64,000 nucleotides of DNA, taken from positions 9,672,001 to 9,736,000 of the forward strand of contig NZ_CP107869.1 in the NCBI RefSeq assembly GCF_036013645.1, read 5' to 3'. The notes below the pieces were generated by a model. It was not told where the DNA came from. It saw nothing but the letters and a program-made list of their open reading frames with translations, and made no database searches. Positions 39,452-61,800 of the stretch are shown piece by piece (the stretch's first letter is position 1; each line of letters begins with the position of its first letter). Source of the stretch: Streptomyces sp. NBC_00490. Its GTDB lineage: Bacteria > Actinomycetota > Actinomycetes > Streptomycetales > Streptomycetaceae. The position numbers and the translations under genes are program-made.

Positions 39452-41734
39452 TCAGGCCGGATACGGCAGCTCAGCCTCCGGTGTTCCGGCGGGCCAGGTG
39501 TGCACGGTGGCGTTCGGGCCACCGATCCGCAGCTGCCACGCGTGCGGGCTGTCGGTGCTCACGTGCAGGCGGTCGCCCAGGCGGCGCAGGTGGAAGCGCG
39601 CCGTCTCACCGGGGCCGTCGGGGCTGGGGATCACCACGGTCTGCTCGGCGCCGTCGGCGAAGGCATGCACCCGCAGCTCGACGCCGTCCGCCCAGGCGGA
39701 GACCGGGTGCTGGTCGTCGGCGCCCAGCGCGATGACCGAGTCCGGGCGGGCCAGCAGCGGCAGGGTGTGGAAGTCGTGCTGCTCACGGGCCCAGCGGGGG
39801 CCGGTGACCTGAGCGCCCGTCAGCACATTGGTCCAGGTGCCTTCCGGCACGTAGTACTCGACGGTGCCGTCGTCGGTGAAGACCGGGGCGACGAGCAGAT
39901 CGTCGCCGAGCATGTACTGCCGGTCGACGGAGGCGGCGGCCGGGTCGTCGGGGAACTCCAGCACCATGGCGCGCATGACCGGGACACCGGTGGTGTGCGC
40001 CTGCTGCGCGGCGCGCTGGAGGTACGGGGCCAGGCGGTGCTTGAGCAGGGTGAACTCGCGGGTGACGTCGACGGCCTCCTCGCCGTAGTCCCACGGCACG
40101 CGGTACGACTTGCTGCCGTGCAGGCGGCTGTGCGAGGAGAGCAGCCCGAACTGCACCCAGCGCTTGAACACGGCCGGAGTCGGGGTGCCCTCGAAGCCGC
40201 CGATGTCATGGCTCCAGAAACCGAAGCCGGACAGACCGAGAGAAAGTCCGCCGCGCAGCGACTCGGCCATGGCTCTGAAGTGGGACTCGCAGTCGCCGCC
40301 CCAGTGGACCGGGTACTGCTGGCCGCCCGCCGTGGCGGAGCGGGCGAACAGCAGCGCCTCGCCCTCGCCCCGCTCGGCGCGCAGCAGTTCGAAGACGGCC
40401 GCGTTGAAGAGGTGGGTGTAGTAGTTGTGCATCCGCTCGGGGTCGGAGCCGTCGTGCCAGACGACGTCGGTGGGGATGCGCTCGCCGAAGTCGGTCTTGA
40501 AGCAGTCCACGCCCTGGTCGAGCAGCGTCTTCAGTTTGCCGGTGTACCAGTCGCGCGCGGCCGGGTTGGTGAAGTCCACCAGCGCCATGCCGGGCTGCCA
40601 CAGATCCCACTGCCACACGCTGCCGTCCGGGCGCCGCACGAGGTAGCCCTCGCGCATGCCCTCCTCGAACAGTGCCGACTTCTGCGCGATGTACGGATTG
40701 ATCCAGACGGAGACCCGCAGCCCCTGCTGCCGGAGCCTGCTCAGCATGCCGGCCGGGTCGGGGAAGGTGTCGGAGTCCCAGGCGAAGTCGCACCACTGGT
40801 AGCCGCGCATCCAGAAGCAGTCGAAGTGGAAGACGCTCAGCGGGATGCCGCGCTCGGCCATGCCGTCGATGAAACGGCCCACCGTGGCCTCGTCGTAGTC
40901 GGTCGTGAACGACGTGGTCAGCCACAGGCCCAGGGCCCAGGCGGGGGGCAGCGCCGGGCGGCCGGTGAGCGCGGTGTAGCGCTCCAGGATCTGCTTCGGC
41001 GTCGGGCCGTAGACGATGAAGTACTCCAGCGACTGGTCCTCGACGCTGAACTGGACCTGTCCGACGCTCTCCGAGCCGACCTCGTAACTGACCTTGCCGG
41101 GGTGGTTCACGAAGACGCCGTACCCACGGTTGGTCAGGTGGAAGGGGATGTTCTTGTACGCCTGTTCGCTGCTGGTGCCGCCGTCGGCCTGCCAGATGTC
41201 CACCGTCTGCCCGTTCTTGACGAACGGGGTGAATCGCTCACCCAGCCCGTAGACCAGTTCCCCCACGTCCAGGGCGAGTTGGCCGACCATGTGGTGATGG
41301 CCCTCGGCGTCGGTGACGAAACCGGTGCCGCGCTCACCGGCGGACGTCAGGACGCGTCCGTCGGCGGTGAACTCCAGCTGCCACGGCTGCTCCGTGTCCA
41401 CCCGCAGCGTCAGTTCACCGGATGTCAGCTCCAGTACCGCGCCGTCCTGGTGCACCTTGCCGGCCTCCGCATCGGCACCGGACAGTGTGAACTCCGGTCC
41501 CCGGCGCACCGATCCGGCGTGGTGGGTGGTCCGTACGCCGATGATTCCCTCGGCTGGGGACCAGCACTCCACGGTCAGCAGCGGGCTGTTGAGGGTCTGC
41601 CCGCGCCGGCTCACGTGCTTGACGGGTGCGTACAGGGTCAGTCGGTGGTCGTCGGCGCGGACGTCGGCGACCTCGGCCGCATAGCGGGCGGTGCAGCCCG
41701 GACGCATCAGCCAGTAACCGTCCGTGAACTTCAT
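39452..41734 (-). CDS. yicI: GH31 alpha-xylosidase (YicI type)
   Basis: The product is 760 residues from the ATG at 41734 (GGAGGAAG upstream). It aligns along its length with E. coli YicI in order and wording: MKFTDGYWLM start, nucleophile D415 in CFKTDFGERIPTDVVW, acid/base D481 in VHWGGD, and SRLHGSKSYRVPW. It should release alpha-1,6-linked xylose from xyloglucan oligosaccharides. With no signal peptide it is intracellular. The start overlaps the stop of the GH1 gene (ATGA), so the two are translationally coupled under the GAAGCGCTTC operator at 43158. Confidence 0.93.
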   Translation of the reverse strand: MKFTDGYWLMRPGCTARYAAEVADVRADDHRLTLYAPVKHVSRRGQTLNSPLLTVECWSPAEGIIGVRTTHHAGSVRRGPEFTLSGADAEAGKVHQDGAVLELTSGELTLRVDTEQPWQLEFTADGRVLTSAGERGTGFVTDAEGHHHMVGQLALDVGELVYGLGERFTPFVKNGQTVDIWQADGGTSSEQAYKNIPFHLTNRGYGVFVNHPGKVSYEVGSESVGQVQFSVEDQSLEYFIVYGPTPKQILERYTALTGRPALPPAWALGLWLTTSFTTDYDEATVGRFIDGMAERGIPLSVFHFDCFWMRGYQWCDFAWDSDTFPDPAGMLSRLRQQGLRVSVWINPYIAQKSALFEEGMREGYLVRRPDGSVWQWDLWQPGMALVDFTNPAARDWYTGKLKTLLDQGVDCFKTDFGERIPTDVVWHDGSDPERMHNYYTHLFNAAVFELLRAERGEGEALLFARSATAGGQQYPVHWGGDCESHFRAMAESLRGGLSLGLSGFGFWSHDIGGFEGTPTPAVFKRWVQFGLLSSHSRLHGSKSYRVPWDYGEEAVDVTREFTLLKHRLAPYLQRAAQQAHTTGVPVMRAMVLEFPDDPAAASVDRQYMLGDDLLVAPVFTDDGTVEYYVPEGTWTNVLTGAQVTGPRWAREQHDFHTLPLLARPDSVIALGADDQHPVSAWADGVELRVHAFADGAEQTVVIPSPDGPGETARFHLRRLGDRLHVSTDSPHAWQLRIGGPNATVHTWPAGTPEAELPYPA

Positions 41735-60369: not shown

Positions 60370-61800
60370 ATGCGCAGACGTAGTTTCAGCCGCAGACATC
60401 CGTCCGCGGCGCTCGCCGCCGCGGTTGCGGCCCTGGCCGCCTTGGCAGCCCTGCTCGTCGCCGGCCCGGCTCAGGCGGCCACCACCAGCGACGTGCGCGG
60501 TGTTGCTTCCGGCCGCTGCCTCGATGTGGCGGGCGTCAGCCAGGCCGACGGCGCGAACGTGCATATCTGGGACTGCCACGGCGGAACCAACCAGCAGTGG
60601 ACGTCGACGGACAGCAGTCAGCTGACCGTGTACGGCAACAAGTGCCTGGATGTCCCGGGCGGCGCCGCGTCCGGGACCCCGGTGCGGATCTACACCTGCA
60701 ACGGCGGTGCGAACCAGCAGTGGCGGGTGAACTCCGACGGCACGATCGTCGGCGTGCAGTCCGGGCTGTGCCTGGACGTATCGGGCGGCGGTACGGCCAA
60801 CGGCACGGCGGTGCAGCTCTGGTCCTGCCACGGCGGCACCAACCAGAAGTGGACCGGCCTGTCCGGGACGGGCGGCACATGTGCTCTTCCGTCGACCTAC
60901 CGGTGGACCTCGACGGGGCCGCTGGCGCAGCCGGCGAACGGGCAGGTCGCGCTGAAGGACTTCACCACCGTGACGTACAACGGCAAGCACCTGGTCTACG
61001 GGACCACCTCCAACGGATCGTCGTGGGGCTCGATGGGGTTCAGCCCCTTCACGAACTGGTCGGACATGGCGACGGCCACCCAGACCGGAATGAACCAGCT
61101 CACGGTGGCGCCCAAACTGTTCTACCTCTCGACCAAGAACATCTGGGTGCTGGCCTCCAACGGGTGGGGCACCAACTGGCCCTTCGCCTACCGCACGTCC
61201 AGCGACCCCACCAACCCCAACGGCTGGTCCGCCCCGCAGCCGCTGTTCACCGGCAGCCTCCCCGAAGGCTCGGGAGGCACCCCGATCGACCCGACCATGA
61301 TCGCCGACGACCAGAACATGTACCTGTTCTTCGCCGATGACAACGGCAAGATCTACAGGTCGACCATGCCGCTCGGGAACTTCCCGGCCAGCTTCGGCTC
61401 GTCATACACGACGGTCATGAGCGACACGGTGAAGAACCTGTTCGAGGCGCCGGAGGTCTACAAGGTCCAGGGCCAGAACCAGTACCTCATGATCGTCGAG
61501 GCTCGGGGTGCCAATGAGGATCGCTTCTTCCGCTCGTTCACAGCCTCCAGCCTGAACGGTTCGTGGACGCCGCAGGCCGCCACCGAAAGCAACCCCTTCG
61601 CGGGCAAGGCCAACAGCGGTGCCACCTGGACCAACGGCATCAGCCACGGTGACCTGGTCCGCAACAACCCCGACCAGACCATGACCATCGACCCCTGCAA
61701 CCTGCAGTTCCTCTACCAGGGCTACGCCACCAGCACACCGCCGAACACCGGCTACCTGCAACTGCCGTACCGGCCGGGCCTGCTCACTCTGCAGCGCTGA
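60370..61800 (+). CDS. Secreted GH62 alpha-L-arabinofuranosidase with N-terminal CBM13
   Basis: The product is 476 residues from the ATG at 60370 (GAGG 6 bases upstream). A signal peptide (to about 37) precedes a ricin-type lectin (about 40-165; [22 protein letters not shown] and [11 protein letters not shown] repeats). The GH62 five-bladed propeller (about 175-476) has [45 protein letters not shown] and [11 protein letters not shown] with the catalytic acidic residues. It removes arabinose from arabinoxylan or arabinoxyloglucan. A strong terminator follows. Confidence 0.94.

Follow-up and report, generated by a model that had tools for sequence, protein, structure and literature searches.

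How can a hemicellulose locus function when it encodes neither an importer nor a regulator? This question is raised by a block of carbohydrate-active genes in Streptomyces sp. NBC_00490, which lies in a window of 64,000 nucleotides (the whole stretch analysed; positions 9,672,001–9,736,000 of the 10.8 Mb genome). An initial annotation had read the block, from a glycoside hydrolase (GH) of family GH31 to one of GH62, as a single locus for hemicellulose, probably xyloglucan, with its sugar ATP-binding cassette (ABC) transporter and LacI regulator located elsewhere. Both absences were confirmed, as none of the 54 matches in the genome to PF00532, a LacI-type sugar-binding domain, falls within the window and no ABC transporter was found among the subset of open reading frames (ORFs) scanned at 36–64 kb. 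The block is probably best understood as two outlying units of a dispersed xyloglucan regulon governed by a shared paired operator and a LacI repressor. Enzyme families, operators, synteny, and phyletic correlation underlie this reading, and repressor binding, the inducer, and the enzyme activities are predicted from them.

Paired operators in the window and at a distant core locus

The operator-linked features of the window are as follows, with enzyme families assigned by Pfam/NCBIfam profiles and secretion signals judged by eye from N-termini.

39452..41734, minus strand: GH31, YicI-type alpha-xylosidase, no signal peptide (Pfam/NCBIfam, closest structure)
41731..43119, minus strand: GH1 beta-glucosidase, no signal peptide (Pfam/NCBIfam)
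43157..43168, no strand: operator TGAAGCGCTTCG, ~45 bases upstream of GH1 (motif scan)
43278..43289, no strand: operator TGAAGCGCTTCG, ~64 bases upstream of GH42 (motif scan)
43347..45491, plus strand: GH42 of BlArap42B type, predicted alpha-L-arabinopyranosidase, Trp369 replacing the O6-binding His, no signal peptide (Pfam, alignment, fold)
49906..51660, minus strand: GH5-X2-CBM46, secreted endo-glucanase (Pfam, closest solved relative 4V2X, BhCel5B)
51697..53208, minus strand: GH43 (+GH43_C2), BoGH43A/B-like, no signal peptide (Pfam, closest structures)
53469..53480, no strand: operator CGAAGCGCTTCA, upstream of GH43-GH5 (motif scan)
53587..53598, no strand: operator CGAAGCGCTTCG, 118 bases from the operator at 53469 (motif scan)

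The GH1 and GH31 ORFs overlap by 4 bases and are therefore taken as an operon, from which GH42 is transcribed divergently. The spacer between GH1 and GH42 holds two copies of GAAGCGCTTC, giving the first of two operator pairs in the window (43157/43278 and 53469/53587), neither of which figured in the initial annotation. A scan allowing up to three mismatches to TTGAAGCGCTTCAA returned five matches in the window against 0.76 expected, four of which are the paired operators. The pattern YGAAGCGCTTCR, which consists of the core and one flanking base on each side, occurs at 14 places in the genome versus 3 for the reversed pattern. Ten of the 14 sites form five pairs, 89–160 bases apart; 0.0034 pairs within 200 bases would be expected, and 100,000 simulations never exceeded one. 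Unlike the raw excess of sites, this pairing is not circular. Carbohydrate loci account for 12 of the 14 sites. Two of the pairs are those in the window and the others lie at 7.223 Mb, 7.237 Mb, and 0.302 Mb, while the four unpaired sites comprise two that precede operons with a binding-protein gene (186.8 kb and 4.408 Mb) and two within called genes of other kinds.

The pairs outside the window lead to candidates for both of the missing functions, at 7.22–7.24 Mb. The pair at 7.223 Mb separates a GH3 gene from an operon encoding a binding protein, two permeases, GH74, GH42, GH95, and GH12, so that the genome search suggested by the initial annotation did find a candidate transporter (7.223–7.227 Mb) behind an operator pair. 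The GH74 was identified through its PDB relatives, mostly xyloglucanases. The 7.237 Mb pair has a LacI gene on one side and a second GH12 on the other; next to the LacI gene comes a GH31 that, among solved structures, best matches the alpha-xylosidase MeXyl31. At 0.302 Mb the pair is flanked by a GH36-like gene and by a GH62 sharing 79% identity with the window GH62. No ATPase gene was found among the scanned genes of the transporter operon; Streptomyces transporters often share the ATPase MsiK. This core locus is ~2.5 million bases from the window, and the units of the regulon are spread over nine megabases. The predicted backbone enzymes of endo-xyloglucanase type (GH5-CBM46 in the window, GH74 and GH12 in the core) all stand behind the same kind of operator, and two predicted alpha-xylosidase types are present, YicI-type in the window and MeXyl31-type in the core locus.

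Two further loci of this kind occur in the same genome. The first (L059, 176000–195000) is a second xyloglucan-like locus with a transporter, GH3, GH43, GH42, GH36, and GH5-CBM46, in which the LacI gene is broken across reading frames. The second (L060, 4398500–4418000) has a single operator and transporter-like genes, with permeases 25–30% identical to those of the core, a YicI-type GH31 63% identical to that of the window, a LacI at 55%, and a GH3 at 45%.

The open-licence papers searched gave no description of a LacI regulon for xyloglucan in Streptomyces, nor of its operator. The part of PMC5355995 available lists a predicted Rex site, TGGTGAAGCGCTTCGCGT, before the putative multiple-sugar ABC permease gene SAV6368 of S. 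avermitilis. This sequence contains TGAAGCGCTTCG and may be a site of the present operator kind.

Operator and gene order in related genomes

The strongest evidence is the synteny seen in relatives. In genome G046, relatives of the window GDSL esterase (85%), GH43 (88%), and GH5-CBM46 (79%) adjoin the core genes, namely LacI (93%), GH12, GH42, GH74, both permeases, the binding protein, and GH3. In G059, GH3 and the transporter operon face one another with an operator pair between them, and GH3 is followed by a window-type GH31 (71%) and GH43 (71%). A single operator in G049 divides GH3-GH1(89%)-GH31(90%) from GH42-GH36-GH43(83%)-GH5-CBM46(62%). G009 keeps GH5, GH43, operators, GDSL, CE2, and GH29 in the order of the window, with an additional GH36 between GH43 and the operators.

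The operator also follows the core LacI across the genus. In a sample of 61 genomes, own included, 31 (own included) carry a LacI orthologue at a criterion of at least 78% identity. A strict operator pair, 64–103 bases apart, lies upstream of LacI in 27 of the 30 loci fetched, again with the own locus counted; of the others, L053 has none, L058 a lone copy, and L040 a strict copy together with a variant one. The median number of sites is 14 where the orthologue is present (n = 31) versus 8 where it is absent (n = 30; p = 3e-8, or 1e-6 per Mb), p-values that overstate independence since the genomes share ancestry. The medians for the reversed control are 6 and 5 (p = 0.2).

A survey of GH43, covering the best 80 named loci of 240 relatives found (57 of the 80 stretches being at least 20 kb), revealed an operator in 67 of the 80 and one upstream within 8 kb in 62. 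These loci contain 153 operator sites in 1.54 Mb against 0 for the reversed pattern. GH5-CBM46 is found in 51 of them, a GH36-like gene in 37, a transporter in 15, and LacI in 9. The closest GH43 orthologues in the 61-genome sample (L074–L079) have no operator within 1.5 kb, and wider stretches of four of these show one further upstream.

The GH36-like gene (L016:6420-8552; also L059, L098, L099, and L100) recurs in xyloglucan operons and is absent from the window. A remnant was sought between the window GH43 and its operators and none was found apart from a 9-residue chance match. Homologues of the GH36-like enzyme are mostly named alpha-galactosidase; all 120 listed carry DAGW versus DDGW in three aligned alpha-galactosidases.

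A number of observations weigh against a xyloglucan regulon under one LacI repressor. GH62 enzymes usually act on arabinoxylan. The bare 10-base core is not enriched in the genome (33 places versus 43 for the reversed control), and the excess of 14 over 3 for the longer pattern is partly circular as the pattern was fixed after viewing the sites of this genome. Two more LacI paralogues, 54–60% identical and one of them broken, lie near single sites of the same kind, so that a LacI protein other than that of the core may bind the sites in the window. Even without a LacI orthologue, genomes carry more sites than the control (medians of 8 and 5). Only 19 of the 80 GH43 loci have any of the transporter, LacI, GH74, GH95, or GH12 in the flanks examined. 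A site is missing from 13 of the 80, and the operator link of GH43 is thus not universal, because six of these are longer than 20 kb. Finally, BhCel5B and BlCel5B, relatives of the window GH5, act on beta-glucan (mixed-linkage glucan) too (PMC4817029, available part).

The remaining features of the block are as follows.

45520..49256, minus strand: XDH/PaoABC-like molybdo-enzyme, three subunits, probably unrelated (Pfam/NCBIfam)
49262..49756, minus strand: DUF5709 protein, probably unrelated (Pfam)
54002..55108, minus strand: GDSL esterase with ricin-B domain, secreted, no operator of its own (Pfam/NCBIfam)
55232..56434, minus strand: CE2 esterase, secreted, no operator of its own (Pfam)
56758..58989, minus strand: GH29 alpha-L-fucosidase with ricin-B domain, twin-arginine-like signal (Pfam, closest structure)
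59402..60124, plus strand: GntR-like regulator (named by eye)
60370..61800, plus strand: GH62 arabinofuranosidase with ricin-B domain, secreted, no operator of its own (Pfam/NCBIfam)

All families first assigned were recovered by the profiles (YicI-type GH31, GH1, GH42, GH43, GH5 with X2 and CBM46, two esterases, GH29, GH62), and the N-termini fit the division into outside and inside enzymes, with signals on GH5, GDSL, CE2, GH29, and GH62 and none on GH31, GH1, GH42, and GH43. The xyloglucan assignment is supported for GH31-GH1-GH42 and GH43-GH5, which have the shared paired operator, the link to the core locus, and synteny in relatives, but not for the block out to GH62 as one co-regulated unit. 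No operator lies 0–350 bases before the GDSL, CE2, GH29, and GH62 genes, either in the window or in related loci (0/16, 0/9, 0/7, and 0/4, respectively). Nor is the block continuous, being interrupted by the GntR-like gene and by the xanthine dehydrogenase (XDH)/PaoABC-like operon and DUF5709 gene (45520–49756) that separate GH42 from GH5 and were passed over in the initial annotation. The molybdo-enzyme operon looks like a passenger, because a relative of the molybdo-subunit (60% threshold) was found in only one of the 80 GH43 loci, that of S. canus. Streptomyces canus V4I20 (L101) is the closest named record by GH43, with the GH62-to-GH1 block syntenic at 92–98% protein identity.

The GntR-like gene (59402–60124), which stands between GH29 and GH62, has relatives of at least 60% in 12 of the 80 GH43 loci and may control the secreted enzymes that have no operator. 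Apparent gene remnants border the block on either side, at 39009–39419 (plus strand) and ~61855–62300; judged by eye, these fragments resemble the terminal part of a BTAD-type regulator and a membrane protein of DoxX-like kind.

The window GH42 and its predicted sugar

The GH42 of the window was initially named a beta-galactosidase, which is now doubtful. The GH42 fold and domains are present (Pfam; Foldseek). Its best PDB sequence match is 5XB7 at 312 bits (next 176), with ~30% identity, and all six chains of 5XB7 top the Foldseek list for its model; the model has a mean predicted local distance difference test (pLDDT) score of 73.9, is poor at residues 357–379, and was used for overall fold only. 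5XB7 is the alpha-L-arabinopyranosidase BlArap42B, in which, according to the available part of PMC8106489, the space that the C6-OH of galactose would occupy, and where a His binds it in a beta-galactosidase, is blocked by Trp358. In BiBga42A, Trp-326 and His-369 bind O6 and Glu-366 binds O4 (PMC10688820, available part). On alignment, the window GH42 and four close relatives read ETYW (Glu366 to Trp369), and four other GH42s from xyloglucan loci read EKFH or ETWH. Among the 120 closest homologues listed, the O6-pocket residue is Trp in 118, Val in 2, and His in 0. The GH42 of the core operon at 7.22 Mb retains the galactose-binding His.

It is therefore unlikely, given the closest structure, the missing His, and the His-bearing GH42 of the core operon, that this enzyme is simply a beta-galactosidase acting on the galactose side chains of xyloglucan. 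That view draws on naming, as any enzyme name given among the 120 homologues listed is beta-galactosidase, on a Paenibacillus GH42 reported to have both activities (PMC10673005, available part), and on VIA-align, where 5XB7 (Z = 32.8) leads the next beta-galactosidase (31.8) by only 1.0.

Genomic context bears on the polymer involved. Loci were fetched by GH42 similarity alone, from the 61-genome sample and, as the best-scoring matches, from a search of 392 genomes. Among the ten loci of at least 86% identity (own included), an operator lies no more than 300 bases away in five and no more than 1,400 bases away in seven, and the remaining three adjoin GH5-CBM46. The sister group (60–75% identity) has an operator in 0 of 29 loci, in stretches of mostly 1.5 kb on each side (7/10 vs. 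0/29, Fisher p = 8e-6); two of the 29 gave no motif match at the Trp site. Three GH42 rows below 85% came from the GH43 search, one of which, L141 (79%), has an operator. In a quick tree of 43 rows (4 of 47 were skipped as short or unreadable stretches, and L071 and L164 were not included), 14 linked rows are joined at 100% by the Shimodaira–Hasegawa-like approximate likelihood ratio test (SH-aLRT), with the linked row L141 outside the clade. Trp is present in both the operator-linked and sister groups; it is therefore taken to indicate the sugar, and the operator to indicate the polymer.

The view that GH42 has no link to the operator was considered, as none was found in the first 61-genome sample (nine other genomes and the own paralogue), and was rejected. 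The operator-less enzymes of that sample are the 60–75% sister group, and closer orthologues (86–93%) with an operator are present in the 392 genomes. The own paralogue (L072, 9479789–9481918) is 75% identical, has no operator, and belongs to the sister group of the linked clade.

Arabinopyranosyl groups on the xylose of xyloglucan are described from mosses, lycophytes, Equisetales, Polypodiales, and Cycadales, and had so far not been found in other gymnosperms or flowering plants according to the available part of PMC6508525. In what is accessible of a 2023 study, no xyloglucan alpha-arabinopyranosidase had been identified, and none appeared among the open-licence papers listed for arabinopyranosidase plus xyloglucan. 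The window GH42 is a candidate for this step. Tentatively, and with somewhat less than even confidence, its clade may represent the xyloglucan alpha-L-arabinopyranosidases of this regulon, removing the D side chain from the xyloglucan of mosses, lycophytes, and ferns, once fucosidases have opened the E side chain, and possibly also pentosyl side chains that have gone unrecognised in flowering plants. Such enzymes would then descend from a general arabinopyranosidase that was captured under the xyloglucan operator. Other arabinopyranosides, such as those of arabinogalactan and saponins, are also possible substrates. If the assignment is true, GH42 offers a concrete enzyme for the step that the 2023 study lacked and fills a stated gap. 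It also points to an entire clade whose database label 'beta-galactosidase' may be wrong.

The proposed sugar route, its alternatives, and known systems

In the proposed regulon, the LacI-type repressor encoded at 7.237 Mb probably binds the paired GAAGCGCTTC palindromes and would be released by a xyloglucan-derived sugar. Release would free the window units GH1-GH31, GH42, and GH43-GH5, the core genes at 7.22–7.24 Mb (GH3; binding protein, two permeases, GH74, GH42, GH95, and GH12; GH31; second GH12), and the GH36/GH62 pair at 0.30 Mb. Outside the cell, GH5-CBM46 is predicted to cut the backbone with GH74 and GH12, and the ABC transporter would bring the oligosaccharides into the cell. There GH43 would take off arabinofuranose or beta-xylose, GH42 alpha-L-arabinopyranose, GH31 alpha-xylose, and GH1/GH3 glucose. 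The secreted GH29 and esterases probably remove fucose and acetyl groups, although they are not visibly under the operator.

These roles are consistent with the closest relatives of the enzymes. The window GH31 scores 1242.7 bits against the NCBIfam alpha-xylosidase equivalog (cut-off 606), with YicI as the closest structure, and the best PDB match of GH29 is the fucosidase 4ni3. GH5-X2-CBM46 is closest to 4V2X (BhCel5B) at 452 bits; in the part of PMC4817029 available, BhCel5B without its CBM46 retains full xyloglucan activity and BlCel5B also cuts xyloglucan. For GH43, the beta-xylosidase 5z5d is the best PDB match and BoGH43A and BoGH43B are second and third.

The match to 5z5d is one point in favour of a different reading, in which the block is an arabinoxylan or mixed-hemicellulose locus with a GH43 beta-xylosidase, a GH62 arabinoxylan arabinofuranosidase, and GH31, GH1, and GH42 as general side activities. 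GH62 and acetyl esterases are typical of xylan, and the 79% GH62 paralogue at 0.30 Mb adjoins an operator pair. However, no GH10 or GH11 xylanase was found among the scanned ORFs of the block, the operator is held in common with GH74, GH12, and GH95, with synteny with those genes in relatives, and BoGH43A itself takes both alpha-arabinofuranosyl and beta-xylosyl groups off xyloglucan oligosaccharides (PMC10952531, available part). An arabinoxylan locus is thus improbable. Least credible of all is control by CebR, in which the operators would be those of this cellulose/cellobiose regulator and the block part of the cellulose response; this was rejected because, although the core AGCGCT is common to both and a TGGaAGCGCTtCCA-form site is among the CebR sites of Streptomyces scabies (PMC5332605, available part), the window sites differ from the CebR consensus at ~4 of 14 positions (by eye) and the 14 exact genome sites of that consensus, TGGGAGCGCTCCCA, lie elsewhere, with none in the window or the xyloglucan stretches fetched.

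The dispersed regulon under the LacI repressor would provide a mapped, testable system for xyloglucan use in Streptomyces, with one operator, one candidate repressor, one transporter, and scattered units. Its relation to known systems can be drawn at several levels, with the published ones compared as far as the available parts of their sources describe them. Among single enzymes, BhCel5B and BlCel5B (GH5_4-X2-CBM46) have the same three domains in the same order as the window GH5, which is likened to them by sequence (BhCel5B, 4V2X, being its best PDB match); both also cut beta-glucan (PMC4817029). BlArap42B of Bifidobacterium animalis (5XB7) likewise has Trp for His at the O6 pocket, Trp358 there and Trp369 here, and has plant glycosides, ginsenoside Rb2 among them, as its described substrates (PMC8106489), whereas the window GH42 stands under a xyloglucan operator. 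At the level of regulation, the CebR regulon of Streptomyces is similar in its palindrome with central AGCGCT and its dispersed hydrolase genes, but the outer bases of its palindrome differ and its sites form a set of their own.

The xyloglucan utilisation locus (XyGUL) of Bacteroides ovatus shares a GH31 alpha-xylosidase, GH43 enzymes related to BoGH43A/B, a beta-glucosidase, and an endo-xyloglucanase (PMC4967831). Here, in contrast, at least three chromosome sites (0.30, 7.22–7.24, and 9.71–9.73 Mb), an ABC transporter, and LacI are involved, and BlArap42B-type GH42 and GH74/GH12/GH95 are present in addition. SusC/SusD is the Bacteroides counterpart of the importer. A single contiguous locus of Bacteroides type was not found here, the import genes being ABC-type (no search was aimed at SusC/SusD).

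A close parallel in gene content is the glo locus of Thermotoga maritima, where the LacI-family GloR, the ABC transporter GloEFGKL, cel74, and a fucosidase are predicted to form a xyloglucan-oligosaccharide cluster (PMC3750489). The combination of LacI, ABC transporter, GH74, and fucosidase is therefore already known, and on paper the 7.22 Mb core locus is alike. Dispersal under a shared paired operator together with a BlArap42B-type GH42 was not found described in the open-licence papers searched. The glo genes form one local cluster, whereas the enzyme units here are dispersed under the paired operator, with GH5-CBM46, GH43, GH31, and BlArap42B-type GH42 outside the core. The Streptomyces system is thus ordinary in kind, as a hemicellulose system, and unusual in its arrangement.

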